From: Peribolospora baueri | Taxonomy: Eukaryota; Basidiomycota; Peribolosporomycetes; Peribolosporales; Peribolosporaceae | NCBI GenBank assembly: GCA_029717555.1 | Contig: JAMDHS010000040.1 | Span: forward strand, 124,001-188,000 | Direction: 5' to 3' | DNA length: 64,000 nt | Shown here: in pieces, positions 38 through 30,202 of the stretch | How positions within the stretch are numbered: position 1 is the stretch's first letter | Layout of the letters: each line of letters opens with the position of its first letter | Program-made: the position numbers and the translations under genes | Notes under the pieces: model-generated | Seen by the model: the letters and a program-made list of their open reading frames with translations, nothing else | What the model was told of the DNA's origin: nothing | Databases searched by the model: none

Positions 38-2223
38 GCACGGCGTTCTCGACCTCGGTCGGCGCCCAAGCCGTCCATGACGCTAGCTTCCTGGCCCTGC
101 TGACAGAGTTCACGACGGCCATGGCTGTGGAGGCGCTCTGTGGTACAGATGGATCTTTCATCCCGTGAGCCGCCTTTGCGCTTTGATGACATTTTGCTCA
201 TTTGCCACAGGATCTGGGCCATGGTCTAGGGCGGTGCTGATGTGCATGCTCTCCTCAGCTTCATTCACGACGTCGCTCGGCCCCATCCTGGCCAAGTGGA
301 GAGCGCAGCGACTCTTATGAGCCTCCTGGACGGCTCATCGCTTGCAACGCATGTCGCCGACGAAAAGGCGACGCTACTCGGAGAGGACGATGGACACCTC
401 AGGCAGGACCGCTACTCTTTGCGTACGTTCTAGGCACGAGGTTGCCGAAGCCCGCTCATCGCTCATTGCAGGCATCTAAGCTGCTGTTGCCGCCACCGCT
501 CCCACCCCGTCTCTGCGACAAACTTGTAGGCACCGCTGCTCAGTGGATTGGCCCACAGATAGAGGACATCAGGGCGGCGCGTCGGGCCCTGGAGATTGAG
601 ATGAACAGCACGACGGACAATCCGCTCATTGATGCCGAGAGCAACCACTGCGCTCACGGCGGCAACTTTCAGGTAAGAGGAGCGAGGCCCCGGCGGAGGG
701 CGACCAAACTACGAAGTGGGATAGCGGAAGGATGTCAAAGAAAAGGAATCTGAAAATTCGGACGATCCGCTCGGCCGTGGTCCTACGCAGGCCATGTCCG
801 TGACCAACGCCATGGAAAAGGTCAGGTTGGCCCTAGTCCACCTAGGTAAGTCGCGACATAGAGGCGCTCCTTTCGATTCATCTAGCTAAGCCCCTCGCTC
901 CACCGCCGATGACTCGATAGGCAAGCTTACCTTTGCTCAGCTCACGGAACTGATCAATCCGAGCATGAATCGCGGGCTCGCCCCCAACGTGAGCACATGT
1001 CGAGTGGGGCTGACCACGGTTGTCCGGCTGACTCTGCGATGCTCCTGATCGACGGAAACCATCCCTCCTGCTATAGCTGGCTGCCACCGATCCGTCGCTC
1101 AACTATCATGGCAAGGGCGTGGACATTGCCATCGCCGCCGTGACTGCCGAGCGTGAGTGGACCAGTTGTCCGTCTTGGCTAGGAAGGGGGAGACCGCGGG
1201 CTGAACCGGCGGTCGTGTCACTTCGATGCTTTCAGTCGGCTTCCTCGGATCGCCTGTGTCCACTCACGTCCAGAGTGCCGAGATGCATAATCAGGCCGTC
1301 AACTCTCTGGCCCTTATCTCAGCCCGCAAGACAGTCGAAGCCGTCGAGGCGCTTTCAATGGTACGTTTCGCACTTTGAGGATGGCCTGGGTGCGTCTATG
1401 GTCCGCTGACTATCTGCCGACTTTCTCGCACCGTAGATGCTTTCCTGGGCGCTTTACCTGCTTTGCCAAGCCGTTGACCTGCGTGCGCTACAAAAAAGGG
1501 TCTCGACCCAGTTGGAGAGGTACGTGGTCGACTCGGTCAAAGCCCGCTTCGGCGACCTATGGGGCCCGGCCGAAGCCGCCATTGCGGCCGCGAAGGTTTA
1601 CCATCGCCTCGCGAAGCGTCTCGCGGAGACGACCACAATGGACCTCAAGGAGAGAATGGCAGACTCGTGCGCATTCGCGAGCTACGAGCTCTTGGAGAGG
1701 TGAGTTTGGAGCTCTGTCTAGCTGCATTTTCCCCATCGCGCAATGTCCGCTGAAGGTTTGGTCGTCGTGACAGGTGTGAGCAGGGTGCCAAGGCGGGCGC
1801 CAGCGACGCATGGGACGCTGTGACGGCCGCCTTTGCTTGCCGCGACGAGTGGGCCGCGTACGGGGAGCGACTCTTCCTGTCCGAGACAGAGGCTTTGCTC
1901 TCCTCCCCGTGCTCTTGTCACGCTGCGCCGCTGCTCGGCCGCACGCGCACAGTGTACGAGTACGTGCGCAAGGAGCTTGGCGTGCCCGTGCACGGCATGG
2001 AGAATTTCGTGCGCTTCGAGGGCGAGAAGGGGAAGATGCGCACGACGATCGGCGAGCACGTGTCCCGGATCTACGAGGCAAGTCTTTCCTCGACTATGGA
2101 GGGAGCCTTTGTTTTCAGATGTGGGTGACCCTCCACGAACTGATGCTCTGGTGCGTCTCCTTCCCGCAGGCCGTCCGCACAGGTGACCTCTACGGCGTTC
2201 TCGTGAACGTCCTCGCCGCGTAG
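38..2223 (+). CDS. PAL: Phenylalanine ammonia-lyase, 3' part (5' end outside window)
   Basis: Deaminates L-phenylalanine to trans-cinnamate and ammonia in the cytosol; the entry step of phenylpropanoid or phenylalanine-catabolic routes. Ten exons are visible: 38-164, 259-422, 530-672, 791-845, 921-988, 1077-1152, 1236-1360, 1437-1699, 1774-2077 and 2170-2223. The joined reading gives family hallmarks: [68 protein letters not shown] and a C-terminus ending [13 protein letters not shown]. The first visible exon probably starts at 38 after an AAAG acceptor, which would restore the Asn-Gly-Thr motif with the upstream exon. The MIO-forming Ala-Ser-Gly lies upstream of the window and cannot be checked. 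The last intron (2078-2169) has a GCAAGT donor. It could in principle be a histidine or tyrosine ammonia-lyase, but the fungal PAL pattern fits best. A fragment of exon 9 recurs at 21121-21210. Confidence 0.95.
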
Positions 2224-3606
2224 ACCTCTCGCGATCCATCGAGGCGATCGAGCACTTCTATAGCGACCTGGTTCCCTCTTGCGACGATTTAAAGCCGTTG
2301 TTCGCCTACCTTCAGCCCGGACGTTTGCTATTGAGAGGCCTGGTCCGTTCCTCTTTTATTTATTTTACCGGATCCAGGCTCCCTGGTTTCCCGACTGTAC
2401 CGGGATGACCGATTCACTTTATTCGATAAGGCTTCCCTGAGAAGCAGGGTCGTGCTTGAGCTATGATGATAGGCGCTCTAGCAAGGGCACGTTCTCTCTT
2501 GTGTTTATTAGGATGATGGTTGTAATAGCGGATTTGTAAACTCGCCCAGAGGCCTCCTTCTGTCTTAGCGTCGCCGGCGCGCTTTTCAGCCGAGGGTGAC
2601 GCGATGCGCTCCGTCGAGCTCGTTCTCAACGGCGTCGGGGCGCCGAGCCATGAGTGAGAAAGCGAGCGCCATGCCCGTCCAATCAACGACGATTGGAGCA
2701 TGGACGAACTCGGCGTCGGTGCACGAATGCGCCACCACGCTGTCGCTAGCCACATTCCTGCGTGCGTCACTGTGCGCGAGAGCACGGGCGGGCGCGGACG
2801 GACGCGGGCGGGAAAATTCCGCGGAGGAACTGGTGGAACGGGACGGGGAATGCTGCCGTTTGGCGAGCAGGTTCACGGCTTGGCGGGAGCATGTAGCTTA
2901 AAGCGTACCGTAGCGCACGGAGGAGCCGGCGTCGTCTTCGTTCGGCTGGAGTGATGCACGGACGTGACTAACTTAGTCCCTCTTCACGAGAGAACGTGTG
3001 GGCCCATACATAGCCCCGTCCGCCCCCCGGGTTGTCCGATGCCGCGGACGACGCCTTCACGCCACAATCGGAAAATCCGTTCCAAGACGCAGGACAGGCC
3101 GGCGCGCTTCCCCGCTCGGTAAGAGCGGGGGCTCAATGACACCGTTCCGATCGAGCGGCTCTTAGCGGAAAGGACCGCCCTACCCGTCGCCGCGTTTGCC
3201 GACGGTTTCGGCCCCAACGCAGTACGAGCTAGTGAAGCTCAGACGTTCAGGCCGAGGTCACAACACAGGAGATGCTCCAGGGCGACGGCACTCCATGAAG
3301 ATTCTCGGTGACGCATCCGGGCAGGCATAGATTACTGAAAGGGAGATACACAACTGAAAAGGGAGATACACAACCGGAAGACAAGCCATTGGCCGCAGCT
3401 CTGGCCCTTACAGGACACGAACATTACAGATGGCGCGAGGTCACTCGGGGTCGCGAGGACAAAAAGAGGAAGGAAAGGACGAGACGGAGGACGGCGACGA
3501 GGAGGGGAATCGAGGCTTCGAAACGCGAACGCCTTGCAAGTGTTCGTCTGTCCGAGGCCGTCTGAGAAGAAAGCGCAGAGTGGACGTTGGTGGTATGTGC
3601 CCGCTC
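2224..3606. other. Intergenic region, tail-to-tail between PAL and the membrane protein gene
   Basis: No supported gene. It holds the 3' flanks of both neighbours, which converge here. A hairpin at 3110-3130 has an 8-base perfect stem (CCCCGCTC/GAGCGGGG) and a 5-base loop. A short tandem duplication of a roughly 19-base unit (CTGAAAGGGAGATACACAA) lies near 3335-3373. Open frames here look compositional rather than coding. Confidence 0.5.
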
Positions 3607-5077
3607 CTACTTTTTCCCATTGTCATAGTGGTACTCGACGCTTTGGAAGACGACGGGTGCCCGTGTCGATGGACCAACGCGACCGGCTCCAGCGGCGGGC
3701 ATGGAGTGAGAATTGGCGAAAGGCGTCGGATCCAGAGGGCCTCTCGTCCTGCCATCCTCCAGGTATTCGCGCTCTTCGAATTCCTTTTTGGTTGAGAGCT
3801 CGTCGGCGGGACTATACAACGACCCCGAGGTGCTGTAGTTGTCGGGCAAGGCGACTCGCGCCTTGAGCTCGAGCTCCTCGTCGGGAATCCGCGCGCCGCG
3901 GGTGCCGTTGCCCTTGATGATCGCGGGCCGGTTGCTGTCGATGGAGTTGTGGAAAGGGCCCAGCTTGGACATCTGAAGTATCCCAGGGCTTAACGGCTGA
4001 CGAGGGCTGGAGCAGGAGCCACGTGGATACCCAGCAAATCCCCCAGCGCTTGCCGTCGCATGAGGGCTGGAGCCGGAGCCCTGTAGATGCCCGCCCTTTT
4101 GCGTGGGCAGCTTTGGCTGGTCGGCCGACAGCTTCAAACCGCGAAAAACACGGCCAGCCATGGACGCGGTGAGCGCCAGGTTTGGAATGGTGAACATGCT
4201 TCGTATGACTGGATTCAGGGACGTGCTGGCGATGAGGCTAAAGGTAATGACGTTGGAGGCAATGGTGGCAAAGTAGTACGCCATGCCGCCCTCCATGATC
4301 TCCCTGGTCATCGCCGGCATGTCTCTGCGGGTGGTGAGCTGGCGGATCCACCGGAACGGGTTCCAGGAGCCCGTCACGTTGTGGAATAGCTTGGCGGAGA
4401 CGGCGAGCCAGACGAACGTGTCGTTCAGGGCGGTCAAGCCTGGGGCAGCGGAGGCGTACCCTTTGGCCACGACGTTGACGCAGTGCCCCGTGTTGGCTAC
4501 GCTGCCGCCCTGGACAGCGAAAACGACGAGGAGGCCGCCGGCGAGAGTGCCGAGCCATAGAAGCCCGAAGACGATGATCACCCATTTTCGATGGCCGTAC
4601 ACCGCCACTGTGCGCAGGTAGAAAATGGCGGACGTGGACGGGGAAGCGAAAGCGTAAGCAATGGTGATCGCCCGCGACGCCGCCAAGCAGGAGCTGACGG
4701 CCGTGGCTTGGAAGACGAAGGACGTGATGATGTAGGCGAAGACGGATATCCTGCACGGAGAATGGATAGGTTTCGGTGAGCCCGCGGCCGAGACTGCAGA
4801 AGCTACCGCCTCGCAGTCAGAAGGCTTTTCCCCGCCCGTGCGCGCGGTCGATTTCCCACCTGGAAATGAAATAGGCCACGGTGGGGAGGCCAATGCGATG
4901 CTTGAACAGCAGTCGATAGTCTTCGTTGAGCGTCAGCAGGACGTCCCACGCATAGGCGCCCATAGTAGCGGCATAGAGCAGCTGGGAGACGACAAAAGTC
5001 TGGCCGATCTCCGGCGGGAGCCAGACCAGCGGGTCATAGTCGGGAATGAAAGGATAAGAAGGAGGCTCTTGGGACAT
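3607..5077 (-). CDS. Seven-helix membrane protein of the basidiomycete DUF6533-like family
   Basis: Predicted integral membrane protein of 453 residues; function unknown, possibly receptor-like. Two exons, 5077-4860 and 4750-3607, joined by a 109-base intron with AG|GTGGGA donor and GTGCAG acceptor. The N-terminal part resembles the DUF6533 entry segment (AYAWDVLLTLNEDYRLLFKH). Hydrophobic helices follow: FAYIITSFVFQA, a Ser/Ala-rich helix before FYLRTVAVYG, WVIIVFGLLWLGTLAGGLLV, FVWLAVSAKLF, and YYFATIASNVITFSLIAS with the RSMFTIPNLAL segment. The last ~170 residues are a polar, Pro/Ser/Gly-rich cytoplasmic-type tail, usual for this family. The start ATG at 5077 was chosen because the upstream extension in the same frame is low-complexity. 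It is divergent from the GMC oxidoreductase gene. A second member of the same broad family lies at 50.7-53.2 kb. Confidence 0.85.
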
Positions 5078-5760: not shown

Positions 5761-8445
5761 ATGAACACGAGCGCTCTGACCAAGTTGGAGCAGTACGATG
5801 TGATCGTAGTGGGGGGTGGGTGGACTCGGACGTCTCATGGCGAAGGGCCGCTCGACCGCGGCTCCCCCGATGCAGGCGTTGGTCCCTTTTCTGATCTCTT
5901 CTCTCGTTCTTCTCGGAATGCCCAGGCGGTTCCGCGGGCTCCGTCGTCGCCGGACGCGTGAGCGAAGATCCAAACGTGAAGGTCCTCCTCATAGAGGCCG
6001 GCAAGGAGTCAGTCCAAGCTGAAACGTTGGGCGGGGCGGGCGAGATAGAGAGAAGCGAGGAAGGCTCGGCTCGGACGGCCATGAATAGCCTCTTTCATGA
6101 CGCGCTGAACTTCTGCCTTTCTGGCGTTCTCTCCCTTCTAGCAACGCTGGAGACCCTGCGGTTCGACACCCCATTCAATACCTCTCACTGCTCACGTCTG
6201 AAAAGGTCAAGTTTTACTTGTCCGAGCCGGCGCATGGAGCGAAGGGGAGGACGATCGCCATTCCTCAGGCCAACGTGCTCGGGGGAGGGTCGAGCGTGAA
6301 TTTTCAAATGTGAGCCGCACTCTCGTCAGTGTGACCCACGTCGCCGCCGCAGCAGCCCCATGGATCGGTCGCCCATACCTAGACCCACTTCCATCCTCGT
6401 ACAGGTTCTCTCACGGTTCAGCTTCCGACTATGATGCATGGGGCGCGCTCGGCAACGAGGGATGGTCATTCAAAGACCTGCATAAGTACCTGCTCAAGGT
6501 GAGTTGTTTGAAAATGAGGATGTCCTGCTTTGGGCCTGCGAATAATCACGTTGTCCCCACCTGTCGATCAGTGCGAGAACTACCAAGAAGAGGACACCGT
6601 CCCTGGCGCGCACGGCAAAGGCGGCCCGATCAACGTCTCATTCGGACGCCATTTCCTTCCTAAGGCCCGTCTCCAACCAGATGCCTTCCTCGAAGCCGCC
6701 GAAAAGGTCGGCATCCCCAAAGTGGCCGACCTGCATGATTTTCACACCGGCCACGGCGCTTCCAACTGGCCCAAGAGCGTCGACGGCATCAAGGGCACTC
6801 GCTCGGATGCTGCATCGGCATATCTCGGCAAGCGCGACAATCTCGAGGTGGTCACCGGCGTCAAAGTGACCAAGGTGAACATCGACCCTGTCACCAAGAC
6901 GGCGACGGGTGTGAATATCGCTCTGTCTACGGACCTCTCCCAGTCTCGCTCCGTCTCTGCACGCCAGGTCGTCCTCTCCGCCGGTGCTTTCGGCTCCGCA
7001 CAGCTTCTTCAGGTATCCGGCGTGGGCGACAAGTCCGTCCTCTCCGCCGCCGGGGTTGAGACCCTCGTCGATCTGCCCGGCGTTGGCAAAAACTACCAAG
7101 ACCACACCCTCCTCTGTCTGGTTTTCCGCGTCGAGCCGAGCGTCTACTATTCGCATGACGGAGTGGCCTTTGGCTTTGACGCCGATGCCATCAAAGCCGC
7201 CCAGGAGGAGTTTGAGCTCAAGGCGAGCGGGCCCCTTGCGACCAACTCGATCGATGTCGGCATCAAGCTGCGCCCGACGGAGGAGGAGGCCAGACAAATC
7301 CCCAATTTCTACGAGAACTGGAAACGGGACTTTTCGGAGAAGAAGGATAAACCGCTCCTCTTCCTCGGACATATGGTGAGCCCAAGTGTGGGGGACGGGA
7401 GTGCGCGCCGGAGGACCTTTCGCTCAGCACATCCATGCTCGTTCTGGCTCTAGTCTGGCTTCCTGGGCGATCCATCCATCTTTGCTCCTGGGCACTACAT
7501 GACCTTCGGCCTGGGTATTCAGTATCCCTACTCGCGCGGAAGAGTCCTCATCAAGTCCGGCGACGTTTCGGAACCTCCCGTCCTAAAGGATGGCTACGCC
7601 ACGGACGATGCCGACATTCGTCCTTACATCTGGGGATACAAGAAGGCGCGTGAGCTGGCGCGCAGGATGAGAGGCTACAGGGGAGAGTATGAAAAGTCTC
7701 ACCCAGCGCTCAGCGAGAGATCAGCGGCAAGGTTGACGCACCTTGACCAGAACATCGAGGTCTCCGAGGATCTAAAATACAGCCAAGAGGACGACAAGAC
7801 GATCGAAGTGCGTGAACTTGCGTGTAATTGTGTCGAGAAGCGACGACGAGAATGCCTCGCTCACTGCTGCCGTCTTTCGGCATTTGGTTGGTCAACGACG
7901 CGGTCCCTTGCTCTTCTTCGGCAGGAGTGGACACGCGCCAGCATTGGAACAGCCTGGCACCCCATGGGCACTGCGTCCATGAAGCCTCGCGAAGACGGCG
8001 GCGTCGTGGACTCGTCGCTCAGTGTGTACGGAGTGAAGAATCTCAAGGTTGTCGGTAAGTGATTGGTGATCGGTGAAGCTCCCGTAGACGTGGCTGGACT
8101 CTCAACATTTCTGTCTTTCCCGTCGAGTAGATCTGTCAATCGCGCCTCTGGTGAGCTCAGCGGCGCGCGGTCGAGTTGCGAACGGATCGACGATGGCTCA
8201 TGTGCTTCCTTTCGCTCGCGCAGATGGTCGGCGCCAACACCAATTCGACGGCCTTGGCGATGTGAGCTGTTTTTCGTTCTCGTTCACACGGCCTTCCGGT
8301 CGGCAGGATCGTCCGTCATCTTCCGTTTGTTCTTATCGCTTTATCGCTGACGCTACTTCCTATGGCGGGCTCGCAATTGCCGTCGGTTCGCTTGTCCAGC
8401 GGCGAGAAGGGCGCAGACCTCGTTCGCGCGGCTTTGGCATCTTGA
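5761..8445 (+). CDS. GMC-family FAD oxidoreductase (alcohol or aryl-alcohol oxidase/dehydrogenase-like)
   Basis: Flavoenzyme that would oxidise an alcohol to an aldehyde or ketone; the substrate is not predictable. Ten exons: 5761-5815, 5926-6007, 6142-6309, 6405-6498, 6572-7375, 7454-7807, 7925-8054, 8131-8150, 8224-8261 and 8400-8445. They give 596 residues, the usual GMC length. It opens with the dinucleotide-binding motif DVIVVGGGSAGSVVAGR and then LLIEAG. The first GMC signature region has VLGGGSSVNFQM, followed by GSASDYDAW. The second signature is SAGAFGSAQLLQVSGVG. The active-site histidine is in HPMGTASM (about residue 531) and the partner Asn in VGANTNSTALAIGE (about 574). There is no signal peptide, so it is probably intracellular or peroxisomal. 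The eighth exon has only 20 bases. It heads away from the membrane protein gene and is followed by the esterase on the same strand. Confidence 0.93.
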
Positions 8446-9530: not shown

Positions 9531-11682
9531 ATGCGATGGTCGACGACCACCTCGACAGCGGTGGCTCTTGCCCTGGGCCTCCTTCAATCTACCCTGCCCT
9601 TCGTGGTCAGAGCGGCCGCACCGACCGTCTCGCTGAATTATACGACCGTCACTGGCGTCTACGGCGCCAGCTATGACCAGGATTGGTGTAAGCAATCGAG
9701 CGCACCGTCCCCAGCTCGCCCATGTACGTCGCGGGGTGCTCAACAACTGACTGATCGGATTTGCCTGTCGCCGAATACGCAGTCCTCGGCATTCCGTATG
9801 TCCATCCACCCGTCGGCCAACTTCGCTTCGCGGCGCCGTCGCCGATTGATGCCACCAGGGCGGGGCCGACCACAGCGACTGCCTATGGACCGGCTTGTCC
9901 TCAGAATTTCTTTCTGGGCGCGGAGCCCTCTCTGGTGCGGTGGCTTTTGCAGTCTCGCCCGCGTTATCCTGGCACGGCGGGCAGCAGGATGGACACATGG
10001 ATCGATGGGCTGACCTGTTGTTTCCTCTCGTTTCGTGTTTCCAGGACCTCAGCAACATGAGCGAGGACTGTCTCTACTTGAACATCCTCCGTCCGTCCAA
10101 CCTGAACAGCAGTAGCCTCCTCCCTGTCATGGTCTGGATTCACGGCGGATCGTTCCAAGAGGGCGGATCTCATGAGAGCAGTGCGTGTTCGCTCTCTAGA
10201 CTTGCGCTATTTCAAAGCACATCTGGCACCTGGCCTGACCGGTGACGCTTTCCATTCAGGGTTCAACGGCACTGACCTCGTCCATCGGTCCACGAGCTTT
10301 GGCACGCCCATGATCTTCGTCTCCTTCCAATACCGCCTTGGCGCGCTCGGGTTCGCCTCGTCGCCATTGTTCGCCCAGCAGGGCTTGCTCAACCTCGGCC
10401 TACGCGACCAGCGCGAGGCACTCTACTGGATCCAACGTCACATCAAGGCCTTTGGCGGGGACCCGAAGCGCATCACGCTCGCCGGCGAGAGCGCGGGTGC
10501 CATCTCCGTGCAGCACCATCAGGCGTGGTACGGGGGCAAGAACGAGAGCTTGTTCCAAGCGGCAATCCTCGAGAGCGGGACCGAGACGTTCTTCCAGGTC
10601 AAGCCTTACAACGACCAACAGGTCTACAACGCCACGCAGCAAATCGTCGATGACGTCGGCTGTGGGAACGCCAAGGACACGCTCTCCTGCCTACGCCAGG
10701 TGAACACGGCCACGCTGCAGAGTTACACGCTGCCTTACTCAGTGCCCAACCTGGACGCCGGCCTCAACAGTCAGTTTCCTTTCAAGCCCGTCATCGACGG
10801 AACTTTTCTGGTCAACTATCCTGTTGTGGCTGTCCTCGAGAACAAGCTCGTTGATGTTCCCACCATCGTAGGCCAAAACACTGACGAAGGCACCCTGTTC
10901 GTCAACCCCGCCGCGAACACTTCGGTCGAGTTTGTCAATTATGTCAAGTCCGTCGGCAACTTTACCGACCAAGAGATTTCGGACATTGAAAAATACTATC
11001 CAGATAACCCCGCTGATGGCTCTCCTTTTGGCACCGGCAACGACACATTTGGCCTCGGCTTTGAGTTTAAGCGGTGAGTGCTTATGATTGGCTTGAGCTT
11101 GCAAAGCAGTGCCGAGGTCGAGGGCGGCCCTGAAACGATACTGACGCACCGTCGCCTGTGCATTTCGACAAAACTCCTGGCGAGCCCAGTCTGGCCGCCT
11201 TTGCCACAGACATGTTCATCACGTCGCAGCGCCGGCTCCTACTCGAGTCCCAGTCGGCCGCGGGCAGGGCCAACATCTGGTCCTATCGCTTCGACCAACC
11301 CGAGCCCTGCGCCCCTCCTTACACCGGCGTCATGCACACGTACGAGCTTCCGTACGTCTTCGACCGTCCCTTCCAAGTCGACAGCCAGAGCGTCGCGATC
11401 CCGTGCACCGAGCCGGCGGCGCTGACACTGGCACAGCAGAACCTCTCCGACATTGCCAGCTTTTTCTGGGTTTCTTTCGTCGTGTCTCACAAGCCCCTGC
11501 CCTTCAACTGGACCTCAGGCGCCTGGCCCGCTTGGACGGCCAAGGCTCCGGTCAACTTTGTCTTCCAGGCGGTCAACGCGTCAGCCGGCCGGGGCCCCCA
11601 CGTCGAACAGGACAATTTCCGACAAGGACAGGTCAACTATTTGATGAACCTCACCGCGGTCGCAACCGGTGCTCCGAACTGA
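9531..11682 (+). CDS. Secreted type-B carboxylesterase/lipase
   Basis: Serine ester hydrolase, probably secreted. Five exons (9531-9687, 9783-9934, 10045-10180, 10260-11073, 11190-11682) give 583 residues, normal for the family. The first ~30 residues form a signal peptide with a hydrophobic core and an Ala-rich end. Family landmarks in order: [26 protein letters not shown], the oxyanion segment [20 protein letters not shown] and [18 protein letters not shown]. The nucleophile elbow is AGESAGA (Ser about 226), the acid is in NTDEGT (Glu about 358) and the histidine is in [10 protein letters not shown] (about 469), so the triad is complete. Several N-x-S/T sites fit secretion. It could release acyl groups from esters made by the nearby acyltransferase, or act on external lipids. 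It lies inside the inverted-repeat pair. Confidence 0.95.
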
Positions 11683-12017
11683 CAAAATAATGCTTCTTTG
11701 CCGTGTATATACTGGACTCCGACGGAGCCTGTTCATCCGTACCTCTGTCCCTATGAGGAAACGATGGGACGACCACGTTCGCTACCTTTTCAAAAGCCGC
11801 TGTTGTAGCCGTGACGATGACGTTGCGCTTGGAACGTTCGACGGCATTCCAGCCTAGGCAGTTGGCACAGGAGCGGAAACGACCTTGGAAATGCGGTCCA
11901 AAGTCGTCGCTGATTCAACGCTGCGCGAATGAGTGGAGGCCATTGGACGCTGAGCTACAGGGAGGGCGGGCGTACGACATACGCCCGCCGGCAAGTGACG
12001 AAGGCGTTAAGTAAATC

Positions 12018-12117
12018 CTGAGAATGTAACTATGTTAGGGCGGATGGAAATGCCGCTATTGGCCAACGTGAGACGCTGATAAAAGGCGAGCTCGAGATTC
12101 CACAGAGCCGACAGGAC
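12018..12117 (-). repeat. Inverted repeat copy B (partner at 5368-5468)
   Basis: On the minus strand this reads GTCCTGTCGGCT to ACATTCTCAG, matching copy A with about 86% identity. Together they form inward-facing ends of a 6.75-kb interval that contains the oxidoreductase and esterase genes. Confidence 0.85.
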
Positions 12118-12239
12118 GGTATTAACACGAGAAATGCGGCAGTGCGCCAGCGGCACTGAAGCTCCATGCTATGGGAACTGCATTGCTTCGACCTAGAGGC
12201 GACGAGCGCTCGGCCCGAGTTTCCACGATGCGCGTTTGG

Positions 12240-12283
12240 AAATGAAATGAAATAAAATAAAATAAAATAAAGTAAATAAAAAG
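12240..12283. repeat. AAAAT-type A-rich microsatellite
   Basis: Alternating GAAAT and AAAAT units followed by GTAAATAAAAAGC. It is an A-rich simple repeat in a GC-rich background, directly beside inverted-repeat copy B, as often seen at the tail of inserted sequence. No target-site duplication was recognised. Confidence 0.7.
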
Positions 12284-13378: not shown

Positions 13379-13402
13379 GGTCGGTCGGTCGGTCGGTCGG
13401 TC
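13379..13402. repeat. GGTC microsatellite, six units
   Basis: Six perfect tandem GGTC units in a gene-poor region. Confidence 0.9.
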
Positions 13403-18159: not shown

Positions 18160-18592
18160 AGAGGGGTGACAATCGTCACCATCTGCAGGTAGAGCGACGT
18201 CGGAACTGTTCAATTGGCGTCTTTCCTACGCCGATGACGGCGAAGCATTGAAGCGAGGTCGTGCGGTGGACCGCTCTCTTTCTTTCCCTTCCGACGCGAC
18301 ACATTTCTGTCTGGAAGAGAGAGGGCACTCTACATTCTTGTGCAAGTCAGGAAAGTCTATCTTTACGTTCAAGTCGAACTCTGCCTTGCTTGTCCCCCAG
18401 ACTTTGAAATTTGAGATTCGTGGAAAAATTCTCCTTCTCCGAGGGACATTTCTGTACATTAGAATCGAGAGGATGCGGACAACAATTAATATTAATTAAC
18501 ATACACATTCAGACGGGCCAAGACAATAGGACGAGGGGGGTTCACAAAAAAATACGGTCGAACACCTTAGAGGGCGAAGCAATCGAGAAAAC
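18160..18592. other. Convergent 3' flanks
   Basis: 433 bases between the stop codons of the CoA ligase and the acyltransferase. No gene seen. AT-rich stretches near 18480-18500 and 18545-18556 are plausible polyadenylation regions. Confidence 0.5.
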
Positions 18593-20445
18593 CTAATCTG
18601 ACTTGAAGTGACCTATGTTCGCCTTAATGCGCGCAGCCAGTTCGTGGACCATAGAAGGCTCGAGCCAGTGGTGATTAAACTGGAGCTGAAAGTTGAATTC
18701 GGAGTCAAACGTCCAGAGCATAAACCAGCTGTTGGGCAGGCGGCAAGAAGGTCAGCAAAGCGGGAACAGAAGCCGAAAGGAGACGAACGCAGCGCTGCTC
18801 ACGGGCTCGGCGTGTTGATGCGAGCGAAGAAGGACCAGTCGTCGATCTCGAGGCTCGAGCCGTCGTCGGGATTGCTTAGCCGAGGCGGAATACGCTGATC
18901 GATCACCCCAAGGGACGTCACGCCTGGAACGGGTTCGATGGGCCTGTAAGAGCAGGAAAGAACGCGGAACAAGCGGGATGGAGCCGAGGGTCAAGGAGCT
19001 GTCCCTCGCCGGGGAGTGTACTGGCATTTCTCCCGCTACTCACGGATTTGGCCCGGCGTTCTGCATCTGAGCGATCAGCGCCTCGCAGATGCCATCGCTG
19101 CACTGAGTGATGATTGGCGTCTGCATGCACTTCGCCAGCTCCGACGCCCACTTTTCAGCATAGGCATCCAACAACTTTCTCTTCTCGTCGGTCACGTCCT
19201 CCGGGTCGCTTGTCCTGACCACTTTGGCAAAGACGCGGCTGAAGAGGAAAGGCATGAAAGCGCAAAACCCGGGGGGGGCGAAAGGCAAAGACGGGTCGAG
19301 CCATCGTCGACTGTCGACGATGCAGGGCAAGGCGAAGCCTGAGGATGAATCCAAAGGGCACATTTCAATCATCCCCACGGCCAACGCAGCCACCAAAGCC
19401 GTGGTGACCGTGATCCCGCGGGACTTGCAGCCGTTGACCAGGCGGCGCGTGTCGGCTTTGGACAATGTGATCCGGGCGCGATCTGCGCGCCATGGACGAG
19501 ACGAGAGATCGCCGTCGGGGAGGGGCAGGACGATTCCGGGCTGTTTTCCCGGAAAGAAAGGTGAGACATCCCGTTTATTTCTGGGCCCGTCGGTACGTGT
19601 AGAAAGGGGGCGAGGACGAAGGATACGAGAGGAGAAAAGGGTCTCTCACCGCATTCTGCTGCAGCTCGGCAAGCTGCTCTGCCAAGAGGGCGTCCGCTTC
19701 TGCTGACGGCTTTTCCAAACCAAACGTCGCCAACACGGTGCAAGGCAAGCGCTTTATCTCGTTTCCCCAGGCCTCGTCGACAATGGAGCCGACGCCAAGG
19801 CCCAGGAGAGCCTTGACAAACGCAGCGATGATAATGTTGACTCCTCCGGCGTCTAGCATAGTGTGGTTGAAATGAAGCACCATCCCGACGCTCGTCCTCG
19901 ATCCATGTTGGGCGACTTGCGGCGCCGTCCAGTGCACGCATGCTGCAAAGCCATCGACGGAAACATGCCGAGACTGCATCAAGTCGTCATAGAGTTTGGC
20001 GTGTTCTGCGTGAGGGTGAAAGAACGTTGTCTTTTCCAGCCATTCCCGGGCCTCTTCTTCATTGCGGGGGACCTGATAGATGCACTTGCGGAACGGCGGC
20101 CTCGTTTCATCTTCCTCGAGCGTGCAGGCAATCTGCGGGTGAAGCTTTCGCAACGAGACCCATGCCTTTGGGATGCGCTCAACGAAACGGTCGGCGGGCA
20201 GGGACGTGACGACTTTGAAGGCGATCGCCAAGTTGAAGTGGCCCTCGACGAAGAGGTCGACGGCGTCGCAAAGCTTTTCGCCTCCCCATACGGGCCTGGA
20301 CGGACACCGAGGCGGTAAAGGTTGAGCAGCAGGAACGAAGCCCGAGTTCAAACTGGATGAAGATGCGTCAAGCGACTCACCTGGCCAGCTTCCCAGGTCC
20401 GACAGGCGTCCACGACTGGACTGGAGGTAGCGACAGCTCGGTCAT
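18593..20445 (-). CDS. HxxxD-type acyltransferase (alcohol acetyltransferase/condensation-like)
   Basis: Probably moves an acyl group from CoA to an alcohol or amine. Five exons, 20445-20381, 20295-19650, 19540-19044, 18943-18803 and 18728-18593, give 494 residues. The N-terminus reads MTELSLPPVQSWTPVGPGK, then VWGGEKLCDAVDLFVEGHFN. The catalytic HxxxDxG motif is HTMLDAGG (His about 166, Asp about 170). The second half contains ITLSKADTRRLVNGCKSRG and GITVTTALVAALAVGMIEM, the usual helix after the HxxxD half, and ends FMLWTFDSEFNFQLQFNHHW, resembling the closing strands of the fold. It fits the AATase/condensation superfamily better than plant BAHD enzymes, as no DFGWG was seen. It is convergent with the CoA ligase, so the pair could supply and use the same acyl-CoA. 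No carrier-protein or adenylation domain is present, so it is free-standing. Confidence 0.87.
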
Positions 20446-21549
20446 GATCGGATTTTGGAGCCCGGATCGAGGTAGCGACGGCAGATGTAACGAGGCGGAG
20501 AAGCGAAAGCTCGACGAGTACGTCTCTCCGGAGTATACCCTCGAAGACGCTGGATATCTGTCTCTCTTTTGGCTGGCCCGGGCGTGTCAGAGCTCGGGGG
20601 GCTTTGCGCATGCTCCGTTTCCCTTCGTAGGCAGCCTTGCTCAGTCGGTCCTCGCGATCCGAGAGACACACGGCTCCACATTTGCGCGAACGAACACCCA
20701 GTTCGGCTCAGGTGCTGCCGAGGGACGCCGCCCGAGGCGCGATGCTGTTGCCTGTTGCCGATGTCCGGCGGCCCGCGGATGAATGCGGATCGACACGACG
20801 TTCCGCTGAAGCTTGACGTCTCCAGCGTGGGAGCAAACCAGGGGGAGCGGGGAAGGCTACTTTAGCGCGCGAGCGGTTAGCGTTAGCGTCAGCGTTCGAA
20901 CCAGCAGAGCAATTTAGACCCGCCAGTTCACTAGTTCGGTTCGACTGATCACGAAAGCGACTACGCAAGTCCACCTAGCGACGCCCCATGGGATCGCCAT
21001 GCGGTGCGACGGAATTAAGTTGCGTCGGTAGTGGAGCCTGAGCGCCAACGGTGGTACAAACTAGATATCGGGAGCCACGTGCACGTGCCTGGTCACGTTC
21101 CAGTTACGTTGCACGTGTCATCCTTTCCGAGACGGAGGCTTTGCTCTCCACCGTGCCCTTGTCACGCTGCCCCGCTGCTCGGCCACACGCGCACAGTGTA
21201 GGAGTAACGTCGAGCCCGATCACTTCTGTCCGTCACATGTATGTTATGTCACCTAGAGAATGCAATTCTGTGCAACATCAAAATTTTTTCTCGCATCAAG
21301 CAAAGTCGTAGAGAATGCAGAAGTGCGCGACCTGTCAAAAAATGAGAGAAATCCAATCTGTGAGTGCTGAGATATGATGAAGGAAGTGTGGCGAACGGCG
21401 GCCAAGAAGCATTTCACACGTCACTGCCAAACCGCCGTTAAGCATTGTCCTTAAGTGAAGTCACTCAAATCTCAAGTGATTCTTGCAGTTTTTTATGTGA
21501 GCATATTCACCAAAGAGCGAGCTCTCTATTCATATAGAAATGGAGGCAT
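20446..21549. other. Intergenic region between acyltransferase and retroelement
   Basis: No host gene seen. It holds the acyltransferase promoter, a 90-base copy of PAL exon sequence (21121-21210) and, just before it at about 21072-21118, three CACGTG E-box palindromes, two of them overlapping in CACGTGCACGTG. The short motif TAGAGAATGCA occurs twice at about 21254 and 21312. Confidence 0.5.
21121..21210 (+). pseudogene. PAL exon fragment (copy of 1875-1965)
   Basis: About 90 bases align with PAL exon 9 at roughly nine identities in ten, starting TCCTTTCCGAGAC and including GCTTTGCTCTCC, CTTGTCACGCTGC and CGCGCACAGTGTA. The copy carries a 2-base deletion and a 1-base insertion relative to PAL, so its frame no longer follows PAL. 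The similarity stops sharply on both sides, with no other PAL sequence nearby. It is a host gene fragment, not a functional gene. Confidence 0.85.
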
Positions 21550-24500
21550 GAATTGATCATAATTGAGGAAATATGGGAGGGGGTTCGAGGCAGGGTCCGA
21601 CGCATGGATGTTGGTCGCTGTCGCGCACCGGTACTTGGTAACGACGAGATCGCCGGCCTCACAGCATTTACACTGATATCTACGAGGCCGTTGACCTGGG
21701 GTTGGGATGGACGTGGTACGCCATACTCGAGAGAACTCCGTTCGGATCAAGGTGTTCCAGTTACAACTATGAGACCAGCTGAGAGGAGATCCGCTCCTGT
21801 AAGTGGGCACGCCTCTAGGCGTGCATCCGGTATCGGCTCGCCCGGCCGCCGTCTACCCGGATACCAGTCACGTGCGGACCTGCGCGTGACCAGGCACGTG
21901 CGACTATCCCGCCAGGTGGGAATCCGCCACTGCGCCCACGCCGCCGCCGCCGGCCCCTCGTATGAGGCGCCGTCGCTGTGCCCCTATGTAGTTATACTCG
22001 ATCCATCACATATGTACCTGGTCGCACAAGTGTCTTAAAGTGCATGAAGCACGACATGGCTGAGATGATCATGAAGCTCGGTGCCCACCCTGACAAGACC
22101 TCATGGCAGGGCATCCTTGTCAAGGCCAAGGATTACGAGGAATCGATGCGGTTCACTCGTGCCTTTCTGCGTGACAGGAAGGCAGAGAAGACCCCCCTTG
22201 GCAGTTCGCCAGGAGGGGGCAACCCCTCTAGCTGCCCAGCTCAAGGCGCTGGATGACATAAAGGGTCAAGCCTTGGCACACCGGTCAAGGCTTCGAGCAT
22301 GCCACTGCGCGCTCTCGCTTGCAATACGAGCAGCGGGCCACCGCCGCTCGAGCTGCTGGTCGAGCAGCTCCTAAGTCAACCGACTTGAGTCGAGACCAAT
22401 GTGCTCGATGCAAGAAGGTCGGCCATTGGGCAAGCGAGTGCCCATTACGCCTGCGAGTCAACAAGGTGTATTGGGACACCAGTGACGAGCATGGCAGCCA
22501 TGGGGGAGATGACCCGCATGAGGACTCGGTACCCAGTCAGGGTGACGAGGAGACTGATGTCATGTTGCACGACATCGACGACCGCCTTGCCGAAGTGTTT
22601 GAGATGGCGGCGGCGGTCGATGAGGACCACCTCGATGATGAGTACGTTGTCGACGTGGACCCTCCTGACCTAGCGGCCAGCTAGGTCCATCGAGCCGGCT
22701 CTGCAGCAAAGCCCAGTTCGCTGGAGCCGGATCCCGTGCTTAGCAACGCTAAGCACAAGATGCCATTGGGGCAAGCGTCGCCAATGGCAGCGAAACGACT
22801 CCCCGGCGTTCCGCCCCTACTTGCCCCGGTGCAAGTAGATGGTCAAACAGCACTCGTGCTGTTTGACACGGGGTCAACTATCGACCTCATATCGTCTTCA
22901 TGGCTTGACGTACACCAGAAGAAGACATATGCCCTCCGCGAACAGGAGGTCATTCAGCAGGCCATGACTGGGTCTAAGGCCAAGCTGACTCGTGCGTACG
23001 AGGCGCACGTCACTTGCGGACCCATCGTCCGTGAGAAGACATACTTTGATATCGGTCCTCTTGACCGGCAGGAGGTCATCTTCGGCACTGCCTGGATGAA
23101 GAAGAACGATGTTCTTCCGGATCTTGTTAATAACAAGATCTTGTTCCGACATCACGGCGTCAAAATCCGCGGTTGGACACAAGCCCAAGCGCGACAGGGA
23201 GCACTGGCTTCCCTGACACGTAACGGTGAACTGTTACATACGGAGTCCGGACCTCAACCTGGAGATCCGGAATGCCCGGCGGAAGTCGTTCGACGCCGTG
23301 AGTGGTGGATCAAGCGCACCACCGATATCTGGGGTGAGATCCCTCTCATCCTGCTGCCCTGGTGAACGATCAATCATCGCTTAAAGCTGATTGACCCATC
23401 CTTTCGCTATGTGAAGAGATATCCGAAATGCCCAGAGGCATTCTGGCAGCAGCTCAGTGATAAAATTGAGCGCTATACCAAGGCGGGTTGGTGGGAAGAG
23501 GTCCACACTGACAACGCTGTACTGCTCTTGTGCATCCCAAAGAAGACCGGGAAGCTCCGTACTGTGGTAGACGCTCGTCAGCGCAATGACAATACAGTTA
23601 AGGACATGACGCTTTTTCCGGATCAGGATGTGATCCGGATGGCCGTGGCTCGTGCACGAGTGCGCGCGAAGCTCAACATGTTCGACGCGTACGAACAGAT
23701 CCGTGTCGTACGCGAGGATGTAGCGAACACAGTGTTCGTTATGATATATGGGACGTACGCTTCCCATGTGATACAGCAAGATGATTGCAACGCCGTTGTT
23801 ACATTTCAGCGTCTTATGACACATCTCTTCGCCGTACATCGGCAAGTTCGTCCATGTTTACCTAGACGATATCTTCGTGTTCTCTGACATACCCGAAGAG
23901 CATGAAGAGCACCTTCATATCGTCTTCGACGTTCTCCGGAACGCGAAGATGTACTTAGCCAAGGCTAAGGTGGACTTGTACTCCGAGTCCATGGATTGCC
24001 TAGGCTTCCACGTGGATGACAAAGGTCTCCACGCTGGCGACGATAAGCTCAGTGCGCTATCATCATGGCCACAGCCGAAGAAAGTGCATGAGATGCAGCG
24101 GTTCTTGGGTATGGTACAGTACCTCGTCCAGTTCCTTCTGGAACTGAGCCGGTATGCCGGCCCGCTCTCTATGCTCACACATAAAGGCTGGAAATATGAA
24201 TGGCAGCCCATTCATGCAGACGCCTTCCAGGCGATCAAGCGCCTGGTTGCCCATGCGCCTGTCTTGCGACCCATTGACCCGGGTCGCCGTGAACGGATAT
24301 TCGTTCACTGGGACGTAAATATCGCTGGCATCGTGGCAATGTATGGCCAAGGGCCTTCGTGGAAGCGAGTCCGCCCCGCCGGCTTCCATAGCCATACGTT
24401 CATGCCTGCGCAAGTGAACTATAGGACTCACGAGCAGGAACTGCTCGCGATCCTTGAAGCCCTAATGAAGTGGGTAGACCAGCTCCTTGGCCGCCACTTC

Positions 24501-26280
24501 ACGGTCATCGCCGACCATGATAGCCTCGAGGTGCTCAAGCAACAGAGCACGCTCTCGAGGCAACACGCGCGATGGCTTGAATACCTATCACGCTTCGATT
24601 TTAACATACAATATGTTGAAGGTGTAATGCACGTCGTCGCCGACGCGCTATCTCGCCTTCATGAGGCGAGCGAACCGTCCGCCGAGCTCCCAGCGTACGC
24701 CTGCATCGATGCAGATCGACGTTTAGACCTGGAGGCCGAGGATCTCCCACCTCCGGTTACGCCGCCGTCCACGTTGCTGAGCCCACTGCTCCTCAATGCC
24801 GTGCAGCGTGCCTTGCCCCCATCCGTGGGCGACGTTCCCCTTCCAGATGCCCCCGCGACCACGTTGTTCGACCTCAACGACATTAGCCCTCAGTTTCCTG
24901 AGGCGTACAAGACTCACCCAGTCTTGTCTAAAGCCATCGCGCGCCCGGATGACTTCATGACCTCACAGTCGGTGATGGTTTCCTATATACGAATAACCGT
25001 TGCGGCGACCGCTATCTTGTCGGGCCACCTCTTATTTTGAAGGGGCGGCGGGTGGCGGAATGCCTGATGGAACAGGCCCATGACAACATTGGGCACCTCG
25101 GTCGAGAGAAGACGCACAATCTTCTCCGCCACCAGAAATGGCTAAGGACGTAGAGTCCTACTGTCGCTTGTGCGCGGTCTGCGCAGCGATTGTCACGAAC
25201 CGGTGAACTGGCGGTACGAGGTAGCTAACCTCGGCCGGGGATTCCCAACGATCGGTCACTAGACAAGACTAAGAAGGCTATACGATGCACACTCTGATCA
25301 CGAAGACAGGGTTGGACTCTGATCCAAGCTGTGGTTTCCCTCATGATGCGACATAGATGGTCCTTATGTACACAGTGGTCTATAGTACGAAGTGCCCTCT
25401 TCGGTCGGGGGACTTCGGGCCGTGTCTGCACGTCCGCTGAAGCGTGCAGGAGGCCAGACTTGCCATCGGGTGCTGCCAGGAGGGGCGCTCCGGTCGCTCC
25501 CGTCATGCCTACGCCTTCGCCCATGGCTCACTCATGGCTTACCTGCAGGGGAGGGCTAGACGGCCATGTACTTCTGGCATGAATCAGGTGGTCGGGTATT
25601 AGGAGAAGAGCGAGCTTAAGCGGCTCGTGGGCACGTGACCGAAGTGCCTTCAGAGCTTCGGTCGGGGCATTGAAGCGACGAAGATGACCAACTGGTATCG
25701 GCCGGGGAAGCTATGCCCCTTGCCCATCCCGGCACGGCAGTGGTCATCGATCGCAATGGACTTTGTTGGTCCATTACCCCTCTCCGAGGGTTACGACATG
25801 GTCCTTGTCGTGATCGATCGACTGACGTCGATGGTCCACCTTCTCCAGACGACGGCGAAGGTCACAGTGGCCCAGGTGGCTTCGCTGTACTATGACCAAG
25901 TCTGCAGGCTCCACGGCCTACCAGAGACGATCGTATCCGATCGTGACGTGAGGTTCTTCCAAGTTCTGGCAAGAGCTCTACCTCCTTGTAGGCGTTTAAC
26001 TGTTGATGTCAACTGCCCACCATCCACAGATGGATGGTGTGACCGAGCGGGCCGACCGCACGGTCGTGCAGATCCTTAGGGCAATGATGTCGCCGGATCA
26101 ATCCGACTGGGCTCAGTTCATTCCAGCCGTCGAGTTCGCTATGGACTCGTGTGTAAGCTCGTCGACAGGGTGCACGCCCTTCGAGCTTAACTTTGGGTAT
26201 AACCCATCCTTATTCAAGACGATCTCGTACTTATCCGAGTACAAGAGCATCAAGGACTGGGCCGAAGCGGCTCGCTAACC
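21550..26280 (+). mobile_element. Decayed Ty3/gypsy-type LTR retrotransposon
   Basis: Parts follow the gypsy order on the plus strand: a nucleocapsid-type zinc knuckle (about 22.3-22.7 kb, CARCKKVGHWASEC), an aspartic protease (about 22.7-23.4 kb, LFDTGSTIDLIS), reverse transcriptase (about 23.4-23.9 kb), RNase H with its connection (about 23.9-25.0 kb), and integrase (about 25.0-26.3 kb), in which a roughly 0.5-kb stretch at 25.2-25.7 kb has no recognisable match. It is broken, with roughly half a dozen interruptions, and looks moderately old. I found no terminal repeats by eye, so both outer limits are approximate. No chromodomain was seen. It sits between the acyltransferase and the monooxygenase. 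Confidence 0.9.
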
Positions 26281-26742
26281 TCCAGCGAGCTCATGATGCG
26301 ATCGTTGCATCTAGAGTGTTCTTTTCTATTTTCAAACTCGGGGGTCTCTCTGCCTATGAAAGGCGAGCTCCATCATAGGCTTTCAGTGCAGTCCGACGAA
26401 GTGGTCCACACCGATGAGTGCCTGCTACGTCGGCCTCCGCAATGGTGGGGCCCCGCACGAGCCTCTCGCCGGGCGTTCACCTCCGTCCCACCTCCGTTGT
26501 TTCCGAGCCTAAGGGTGTCACCCAAAACATTTCGCCCGGAATGCTAACCCAGTCCTAGATACCATACAGCCCGAGGCTCACCATGTAAGCCGCTGCTCCT
26601 GCCTACCTTCATCTTCGCAATCACTCCCTCTCTTCCTTCCCCTCTTCCATCCTCTCTGGGCCAGCCCTCTTCTCCTAGGCGCAATCGTTCCCTCCGCGCG
26701 CGCTTCACCTCCCGTGCCCTCGTCATCGCATCTCAACTCACC
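26281..26742. other. Region between retroelement remains and monooxygenase start
   Basis: No gene. The left part may still be element sequence. A CT-rich tract from about 26590 to 26750 directly precedes the monooxygenase start codon and looks like a typical fungal core promoter or 5' UTR pyrimidine tract. Confidence 0.5.
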
Positions 26743-29700
26743 ATGTCTCTTGCCCCCCTCTCTTCAAACAACGTTACCTCCAACAACGCCGCCGCCTCGC
26801 CACAAGGATTTGCGGCTAATGGCTTCCGCTGCGAACCCCATTCCATCGACGCTGCTCGCCCTCTCAGGGTCGTGGTCATCGGCGCCGGTCTGAGCGGCAT
26901 CTATGGTCAGTCTCCAGTGCTCCCACTTGGCCGCCTCTTGAGGTCTTGAAGAGCCAGTCGTCATCGCCCTTCTCTGTTCCGTCTTCTTCTCCTCCCCGTT
27001 GACTCTCCCATCGAACTTCCGAATCCCATAATAGCCGGCATCCGCATCCCGCGCGCTCTTCAAAACGTCGACCTGCAGATCTATGAGAAGAACGCCGACG
27101 TCGCCGGTACCTGGTGGGAGAATCGGTACGCCGGCTGCGTGAGTTTGCCCACCCATTGATATTTTCAGACCAGAACCACCTCTCCCTGGGGATACTCGAG
27201 CAACCGTGCAGCGAGGGCGCCCACTCGTCTCTAACATCCTCCCTTCATTCCCTCTTCTGACCTGTGCGTCCTTTCCTTCAACCAGGCCTGTGATATCGTG
27301 AGCTTCCTCTCTTCTGTCACCGCCAAGCTCTACTTGTCGTAAGCGACGTGCTGAGCTCCAAGCTGATTTTCCCATGTCTCCCATATCCGTCTCATTCGCT
27401 TGTCGGCCGTCTCGTATGATGCTCACAGCCCGCAGTGAGCCATAGTCTCTTTTTAGAGGAGAAATGCGACCGATGCCCGACTATTGCTGCTGGCGGCTCC
27501 TCAAAGAAGCTTTTTGTGCTGACCCTTTCCCTTCGCGTGCGCCTTCGCACCGCCGCAGCACTGCTACTGCTACACCTTTGAGCCCAGCCCGAACTGGTCG
27601 AAATTCTATGCGTCGTCCAGCGAGCTGTTTCAATACTGGAAAGGTGCCCACCCTCCGCTACGCCAAAGGACCTTGTCGTTCTGCCTTCTTAACGTCTAGC
27701 TGACCGCCTTCACCTCGGCACCTCGTCTTCATGTCCTCGCCTTCCCCTGTCTCCCGATTTTGCAGGGGTCGCGGTCAAGTACGGCGTGCCGAAGTATGTC
27801 AAGCTCGAGCATGCCATAGTTGGTGCTCGTTGGGACGACGCTGCAGGCCTCTGGAAGCTCAAGGTCGAGGACCGTTCTGGTGGGAGGGGACAAGGACAGG
27901 GCCGGCGTTTCGATGATTATGCTGTGAGAGGGTGACGGTAGAAACCGACGGGACACGGCGCAGGTTCGGGCCGAGCCTTCCTGACCAAACTTCTGCACGA
28001 CTTCACAGCATGTCGTTGTGAACGCGACAGGAGCTTTAAACAATTGGAAGTGGCCGGACACGGTACGTGTCTGATATTGGAGCCCGAAGAGACCAATCAC
28101 ATACTGACGTTGGCGCTACCCTTGCTTCATGCGCACAGCCTGGCCTCGACTCCTTCCAAGGCCACAAGGTACACTCGGCCATATGGGACGATTCGTACGA
28201 CTACATGGACAAGCGCGTGGCCGTCATCGGCAGCGGCAGCACGTCCATCCAGATTGTACCCGCACTCCAGCCAATCGTCAAGCATTTGGGCTCCTTCGTT
28301 CGTGGTCGGACTTGGATCGGCTTTCCATTCTCAAGCGATCTGCTAGCAGAGAAAATGAAAAATGGCAACTGTGAGACCGGAAGCTTTGTGCTTTCTATCG
28401 CACCTCTTCTCCATATCTTTCTCTCTTAACTTTCCTTGTCCTCCCGTCGCCACCAGACGCCTACACGGAGGAAGAGAAGCGCGAGCTGGCGGATCCGGAA
28501 ACGCACCTCAAATACCGCAAGTTGCTCATGGACGATCTCAACAGCAGTCACGGTAATCTTCAGAAGGGCTCTGAAGGGCAAAAGATAGTCGTCAAGTTGT
28601 TCGGTGACAACATGAAGGAGAAGCTCAAGAAGAAGCCCGAGATCTTTGAGGCCATTCAGGTAGGTGGTGACTTGGTTGACACCGCCATGATGAACACGCT
28701 CGTCCACAATTGTGTCATCATTTTACACCGCTTCATCCCTTCCGACAGCCCGATTTCCCTGTCGGCTGCCGACGTGAGCTTTGGATCCTCCCCGAGCTAT
28801 TGCCAACGTGATGATCCTCCATGCTGACGGAAAATCCACTATGGATCCGGTCAGGACTGACGCCTGGCCCTGGTTTTCTGGAAGCGCTGGTCGAAGACAA
28901 TGTGGGGGGATCCCTTTTTCCCATCGTCTTTTCCTTCGGTCGCCGGTTGAAGCGTATTCCACTCCACGTCATCCTCAGGTCGAGTTTGTCAAGCAAGAGA
29001 TCGACAAATTCTCTCCTAAGGGCATCGTGACGAAGGACGGCAAGGAGCGCGAGTACGACGCCATTGTTTGCGCCACTGGCTTTGACACGGTGCGTTCCTC
29101 TCTCTCAAGACATTCCTCCATCGTATCCAAGCGCCGCTAACTTGGTCTTGTCCTACATCGTGAAACGCGTCTGCATTGAAGACGTACCGGCCCCGCTTCC
29201 CCATCATCGGCAGGAACGGCACCGACCTCGCCGACCGATGGGCCGACTTCCCGCACACGTATCTCTCCGTCGCCGTGGACGGTTTCCCAAACTGGTTTTT
29301 TGTGAGACTTCGGTGCCCAAGCGGTCCGGCGGGCAAGTTGCTCCCGCCCTTGCTGATCAGTTTGCTGACGGCGGGTACGAAATTTTTACACTGGCCGACA
29401 GGTCAACGGCCCAAACAGCGCTGTAGGAAGTGAGGCGTGTCCTTTTTGCAAGGTGAAAGCAACTGTTTCGCAAATCCCCGCTGACGACGCTATTGAATCT
29501 GCTATTCCCCCAGGTGGCGATCTCATCATCGTATTCGAGCACGAGATCGAGTACATCGTTTCCGTGATCAGGAAACTGCAGATGGAGCGTTACAAGTCCA
29601 TCGAGGTCAAGCCTGAGGCGGTCGCCGATTTCTACGAGTACTCCCAAACTTACTTTCAACAAACAGTTTACTCTACCAAGGTAAGCGCTCAGGCTCACAA

Positions 29701-30202
29701 CCACGCTCTTCGTCCTGCGTTTTCGAAGTTGCCAAGCTAAGGACCTTCCCCTGCCGTGCGCCACTTCCGTCTTTTTTCTTCATTTTTTGCATCATGGCGG
29801 ATAGTGCCGGACGTGGTACAAGGGCGGCAAGACGGAAGGTCCCATCACTGCCCTCTGGCCCGGCTCTTGTCTGCACGCTTGCAAGACGCTCCATCACCCG
29901 CGGTGGGAAGGTGAGCGATGACGAACGATACTGCATCATGTCGCCGTCGTGTGTCAAACGATATACAAAATGACCCATTTTCTGCCTCCCTTCAACGACT
30001 CCCCCCAATCATCCTCGACCGCGTTCCCTGTGCAGATTACAACTATGAGCGCCTGCCCAGCGCTGGACCCAACCGGCTCGGCTGGCTCGGTAACGGCTGG
30101 ACCGACGCGGAGCTCAACGGAGGAGACCGGCGTTGGTACCTCAAGCCGAACGAGGAGGCTCAGAAATCGCTTAACAGCGGCGCCATGCGCTTCTCGATGT
30201 GA
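26743..30202 (+). CDS. Baeyer-Villiger-type flavin monooxygenase, 17 exons
   Basis: FAD/NADPH enzyme expected to insert oxygen beside a carbonyl or hydroxylate a substrate. Exons: 26743-26905, 27035-27138, 27286-27297, 27429-27434, 27559-27643, 27766-27923, 28009-28062, 28139-28370, 28457-28659, 28749-28773, 28855-28901, 28979-29089, 29182-29301, 29402-29429, 29514-29680, 29805-29910 and 30036-30202, giving 595 residues. The first Rossmann motif is VVVIGAGLSGIYAG, then DVAGTWWENRYAG, CDIPAHCYCYTFEP and VVNATGALNNWKWP. The Baeyer-Villiger fingerprint FxGxxxHxxxW(P/D) is met by FQGHKVHSAIWDD, followed by the second Rossmann VAVIGSGSTSIQ and later IVCATGFDT and VNGPNSAVGSGDL. Two consecutive microexons of 12 and 6 bases supply ACDI and PA. 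It resembles fungal steroid/sterigmatocystin-type monooxygenases. It may belong to the aromatic gene group to its left. Confidence 0.93.

Follow-up and report, generated by a model that had tools for sequence, protein, structure and literature searches.

We analyzed a stretch of 64,000 nucleotides from the basidiomycete Peribolospora baueri (bases 124001-188000 of contig C113, hereafter the window; assembly of 22.1 Mb in 178 contigs). The window carries a set of metabolic enzyme genes at its left end, and a hybrid synthase adjoins them beyond its left edge. A further 100 kb to the left of the window was added to the analysis, and negative coordinates denote positions left of the window start. 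A splice-aware gene finder trained on contig C113 itself produced 64 gene models; introns in the better-scored models had a median length of 94 bases. Ten proteins, including nine from the cluster stretch, were scanned against Pfam; small low-score models lay outside the scan. The cluster extends from about -10.3 to 30.2 kb, roughly 40 kb, and holds the following features, given with strand and basis of assignment:

-10317 to -3153 (C113:113683-120847), minus strand: hybrid synthase of 2134 residues (gene model, Pfam, PDB, NCBIfam).
1 to 2223 in the window, gene start at -1898 or -1820, plus strand: phenylalanine ammonia-lyase PAL1 (Pfam, reading frames, alignment to PAL2).
3607 to 5077, minus strand: membrane protein of 453 amino acids (DUF6533 below threshold, 21.9 bits versus a cut-off of 24.1).
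5761 to 8445, 3' end approximate, plus strand: GMC oxidoreductase of the alcohol-oxidase type (Pfam, 4.1e-37).
9531 to 11682, plus strand: carboxylesterase (Pfam, 1e-96) with a signal-like N-terminus by eye.
15037 to 18150, 3' end approximate, plus strand: 4-coumarate:CoA-ligase-like acyl-CoA ligase (Pfam, PDB, paralogue alignment).
18593 to 20445, minus strand: free-standing HxxxD acyltransferase, PapA/Tri3-like (Pfam, PapA_C 8.3e-08 and Tri3 2.4e-06).
22562 to 26278, plus strand: retroelement remnant (Pfam to 25040, with reverse transcriptase, RNase H and aspartyl protease; by eye beyond).
26743 to 30202, some inner exon borders uncertain, plus strand: Baeyer-Villiger-type flavin monooxygenase (Pfam, FMO-like 2.7e-06).

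An initial annotation had listed PAL, a GMC oxidoreductase, a carboxylesterase, a 4-coumarate:CoA ligase (4CL)-like enzyme, an HxxxD acyltransferase and a Baeyer-Villiger-type monooxygenase, with no housekeeping gene until right of 31 kb. All six enzymes were confirmed by Pfam, at about -1.9 to 30.2 kb, although PAL1 crosses the left window edge and the retroelement remnant had been overlooked. No housekeeping family was matched in Pfam among the cluster proteins scanned between PAL1 and the oxygenase. To the right of the enzyme set, scored genes begin with a mitochondrial-carrier-like one (31132-32494, Pfam), and a dienelactone-hydrolase-family gene also lies on that flank. On the left flank, beyond the synthase, family matches mark Ras-, ubiquitin-conjugating-, proteasome- and CLPTM1-family genes. 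The annotation had also proposed extending leftward to look for a polyketide synthase (PKS), and this search succeeded: the 2134-residue hybrid is the immediate neighbor of PAL1 and is transcribed divergently from it, with a promoter region of about 1.25-1.33 kb between the two.

Within one gene model, Pfam placed the domains of the synthase in the order adenylation (A; AMP-binding at residues 60-424, AMP-binding_C_3 at 467-585), carrier (T), ketosynthase (KS; 721-1088), acyltransferase (AT; 1238-1551), carrier and reductase (R; NAD_binding_4 at 1766-2013, above its cut-off). The best of the two carrier stretches spans 1650-1715. No ketoreductase (KR) or dehydratase (DH) family matched the synthase in Pfam, and only about 100 residues (1552-1649) separate the AT from the second carrier, into which a KR or DH would not fit. 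By eye we found the carrier serines, the KS cysteine and histidines, GHSLG in the AT, and GATGFVG and YGMSK in the reductase, all of which we take to be catalytic motifs. An adenylation domain and a carrier precede a KS-AT-carrier module in a single protein, which is the core (A-T-KS-AT-T) of fungal hybrids between nonribosomal peptide synthetase (NRPS) and PKS. The enzyme families, this domain order (one gene model), the motifs, the divergent PAL-synthase pair and the flanks are what can be read from the sequence itself.

All ten PDB matches of the A domain at 1e-8 were 4-chlorobenzoate, 4-coumarate, feruloyl or fatty acyl-CoA ligases or a luciferase ancestor, and none was an amino-acid-activating (NRPS) domain. 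On the amino-acid adenylation model TIGR01733 the domain scored 63.9 bits versus a cut-off of 317.4, where a plain CoA ligase scores 144.3. By these comparisons the A domain appears closer to CoA ligases than to amino-acid-activating domains, which tends to speak against an amino acid as the starter. Among the best 60 of 88 PDB matches, the KS-AT part was closest to the putative PKS 7zma and to CurL, ahead of CTB1, norsolorinic acid synthase and LovB; within those 60 it seems nearer the modular bacterial kind than the classic fungal PKS, given the lineages we assume for these relatives. The R domain had three PDB matches (8aep, an 'acetyl-CoA synthetase-like protein'; MxaA; and a type I PKS), of which 8aep and MxaA were nearest, and it matched the thioester reductase model TIGR01746 at 2.9e-35, under the model's cut-off.

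We then placed these domains in the genome with searches that read single exons and scored the best candidates only, such that diverged copies may escape. AMP-binding_C_3 and R matches coincided on six contigs (C113, C10, C11, C90, C115 and C121). KS matches fell on nine, and C113 was the sole overlap between the two sets. At the other five loci the distance from AMP-binding_C_3 to R was about 0.8-1.0 kb, too short for a KS-AT in between, and no KS match was found on those five contigs. These five presumably belong to the A-T-R carboxylic acid reductases, or NRPS-like enzymes, with which the synthase has in common the same A-domain C-terminal family and a reductase, but from which it differs in its KS. 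Within the reach of these searches, the C113 hybrid appears unique in the genome, being the only locus found with adenylation, KS and reductase domains together. The remaining KS matches lay on C19, C106, C112, C178, C55, C37, C123 and C135; in our judgment these are many for a genome of 22 Mb.

PAL1 matched Lyase_aromatic at 2.6e-110 in a Pfam scan of a model without the first exons. The gene finder's own model begins at -656; the earlier exons come from reading frames and alignment to a second PAL gene, PAL2, and were joined by eye. PAL1 carries an ASG motif, an HQ pair and a tyrosine loop, to which we assign their roles from general knowledge. PAL2 lies at C116:21073-25045, and the KS search gave no match on that contig. 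Across 502 aligned residues the partial PAL1 model shares 70% identity with PAL2, and the ratio of nonsynonymous to synonymous substitution rates (dN/dS) is 0.15 over 479 kept codons of that model, so the pair looks constrained. When exons of PAL1 and of the 4CL-like ligase were aligned to paralogues at other places in the genome, stop codons were confined to inserted stretches, which we take to be introns. Because a second PAL lies on another contig, the PAL1 copy would be free to specialize. Around PAL2 we noted, by eye, genes for a 2006-residue protein and a lipase-like protein, and a cyclin-like gene about 11 kb off.

On balance, we think it probable that the locus is one biosynthetic cluster of about 40 kb, in which an aryl acid supplied by PAL1 is loaded, extended and reductively released by the synthase and then tailored by the products of neighboring genes. 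What we infer in this scheme is the identity of the starter acid and of the product, how many extensions occur, and what each tailoring gene does. PAL1 would convert phenylalanine, perhaps also tyrosine, to cinnamate or p-coumarate. The A domain would activate the aryl acid and load it on the first carrier, and the KS and AT would add one or more malonyl units with no keto reduction. Release by the terminal reductase would yield a beta-keto aldehyde or alcohol. Finally, the Baeyer-Villiger-type oxygenase, the GMC oxidase, the esterase and the acyltransferase, the last fed by the 4CL-like ligase, may decorate the released chain. The initial annotation had allowed a phenylpropanoid-type cluster of either biosynthetic or catabolic function. 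Its biosynthetic half is considerably strengthened by a PKS beside PAL1, whereas the synthase points away from catabolism, and given this adjoining enzyme we set the purely catabolic reading aside.

We compared the locus with known systems as these are described in the cited papers. HispS makes hispidin from caffeic acid and has the order A-ACP-KS-AT-ACP without KR or DH (PMC9866795), the same order that we see in the C113 synthase. By that description HispS has no terminal reductase, where our synthase has NAD_binding_4, and HispS orthologues of non-luminous fungi generally have KR and DH (PMC9866795). A precedent for an A domain that takes p-coumarate directly is FnsA, the naringenin synthase of Pestalotiopsis fici, in which a type I PKS is fed by an A domain that loads p-coumarate or p-hydroxybenzoate. 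FnsA is, however, A-T-KS-AT-DH-KR-ACP-TE, with DH, KR and TE of its own, and the genes neighboring fnsA were judged unrelated by its authors (PMC9606254). SwnK (A-T-KS-AT-...-ACP-R) ends in a thioester reductase like the C113 synthase (PMC8403587, PMC5473758), but it has a KR, absent here, and activates the amino acid pipecolate (PMC8403587). Like the C113 locus, the strobilurin cluster places PAL, a CoA ligase, a GMC oxidoreductase and an FAD oxygenase beside a PKS, but its PKS is highly reducing and it includes a non-heme iron oxygenase and two methyltransferases (PMC6158276), none of which was seen in the nine C113 proteins scanned. The locus matches none of these four systems in full. In the portions of the literature covered, including PMC8582187 and PMC6854747, our search found no A-T-KS-AT-T-R synthase and no cluster of PAL with a hybrid; the domain types in a survey of 502 hybrids fell outside this search, and we do not claim absence from print.

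The 4CL-like ligase calls for separate consideration. Its partial 312-residue model matched AMP-binding at 3.1e-22 in Pfam, and each of the five best solved relatives of that model was a 4-coumarate:CoA ligase, in one case as part of a fusion protein. The initial annotation had taken PAL, 4CL and acyltransferase as the main line, which is probably wrong, since the synthase has an activating domain of its own. For the same reason the ligase would more likely serve the acyltransferase or another step than prime the synthase. In vitro, the PKS part of FnsA gave no naringenin from p-coumaroyl-CoA (PMC9606254), which by analogy suggests a different role for the ligase at this locus, perhaps in supplying the acyltransferase. 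The alignment of the ligase to its closest paralogue, on C112, is near full length, with 63-67% identity in two main pieces, and a dN/dS of 0.11 over 295 kept codons (partial model) indicates that this pair, too, looks constrained. Another PKS gene (KS, AT and PS-DH by Pfam, partial) is found some 11.5 kb away from that paralogue in C112:9378-29971, a region that also holds an FAD-binding protein, a GPR1/FUN34 family protein and a pyridoxal-dependent decarboxylase. Going by these family matches, C112 is a second ligase-PKS neighborhood in the genome, and we count it in favor of the proposed cluster.

The HxxxD motif of the acyltransferase reads HTMLD by eye; the protein is far from solved structures, with only two PDB matches at 0.01 (7e-9 and 2e-7). 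The oxygenase matches cyclohexanone, steroid and phenylacetone monooxygenases in the PDB and shows, by eye, the fingerprint FQGHKVHSAIWD and the Rossmann motifs GAGLSG and GSGSTS; we assigned it on the assumption that FxGxxxHxxxW[PD] marks Baeyer-Villiger monooxygenases. The oxygenase shares 33-37% identity with its nearest relative in the genome, which lies at C120. The best match of the GMC protein was alcohol oxidase 1 (5hsa, 6e-118). Two multi-span membrane proteins, at 3607-5077 and 51187-53218, look alike by eye.

The retroelement remnant does not belong to the pathway. When a 1,194-base piece of it was searched against the genome, with very common words skipped, the only match was the piece itself. 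No terminal repeats of at least 60 bases were found in 11700-31000, which covers the element and the gap, and no repeats of at least 30 bases in 20446-26742. A 49-base direct repeat, 92% identical, occurs at 13604-13652 and 14795-14843, ahead of the ligase, where no genes were scored.

Several observations weigh against a single PAL-fed cluster. All gene models are computational predictions with approximate exon borders. None of the nine cluster proteins scanned matched a regulator, P450, methyltransferase or transporter family in Pfam. The A domain has weak PDB matches (best 1e-12) and a fatty-acid-CoA ligase as its best NCBIfam model, so that the evidence leans partly toward fatty acids and does not single out aryl acids. 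The ligase appears redundant beside this domain. About 3 kb inside the cluster holds no scored gene, and the retroelement remnant sits between the acyltransferase and the oxygenase. The GMC enzyme has relatives on other contigs and, being of a general alcohol-oxidase type, need not belong to the cluster. Finally, promoter k-mers common to cluster genes did not exceed those of random sets; this test compared six cluster promoter regions, for k from 7 to 10, with 100 random sets per k from 30 control promoters, which were capped at 900 bases and thus shorter than some cluster regions.

These points bear unequally on three alternatives. The first accepts a real cluster whose synthase takes another acid (fatty, benzoic or other), with PAL1 either a mere neighbor or serving the ligase-acyltransferase branch only. 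The A-domain matches span aryl and fatty acyl-CoA ligases, and a long-chain fatty-acid-CoA ligase model tops NCBIfam (90.7 bits, ahead of o-succinylbenzoate-CoA ligase at 78.7, both far under their cut-offs); the separate 4CL-like ligase is in keeping with this alternative as well. We nevertheless regard it as unlikely, as PAL1 is the immediate divergent neighbor of the synthase and 4-chlorobenzoate ligases lead the PDB matches of the A domain.

A second alternative divides the locus in two, with PAL and the synthase in one pathway and the GMC enzyme, esterase, ligase, acyltransferase and oxygenase in another, or in ester or aromatic catabolism. The gaps and retroelement remnant between the genes, the alcohol-oxidase type of the GMC enzyme and the lack of common promoter words would all fit such a division. 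It is made rather improbable by the absence of housekeeping families among the proteins scanned in between, and by the acyltransferase, for which a genome search with four candidates scored gave no match outside its own locus. That the genes share no function and are neighbors by chance in a gene-poor stretch accords with the retroelement remnant but is very improbable, as the PAL and ligase sequences are constrained and, in our judgment rather than by calculation, a PAL divergent from an acid-loading synthase and accompanied by five metabolic enzymes would seldom arise by chance.

Beyond the PAL-fed cluster itself, we suggest more tentatively, and with somewhat less than even confidence, that the synthase represents a new subtype of acid-primed fungal synthase. 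It would be a carboxylic-acid-reductase-like A-T-R enzyme with KS-AT-T inserted in its middle, fed by a divergent PAL and making non-reduced styryl beta-keto aldehydes, in effect hispidin-like chains caught as aldehydes, which the neighboring enzymes would turn into a new class of metabolite. The synthase also raises the question of kinship between hispidin-type and carboxylic-acid-reductase-type enzymes.

Before FnsA, five of 502 fungal NRPS-PKS hybrids had a known product, according to the survey in PMC9606254. Here, an enzyme that likely makes the starter adjoins the hybrid, and a reductase stands at the hybrid's end, so that both starter and product are directly testable. If our reading is correct, it would link fungal phenylpropanoid supply to aldehyde polyketides and provide a candidate enzyme for styryl aldehyde production in yeast.

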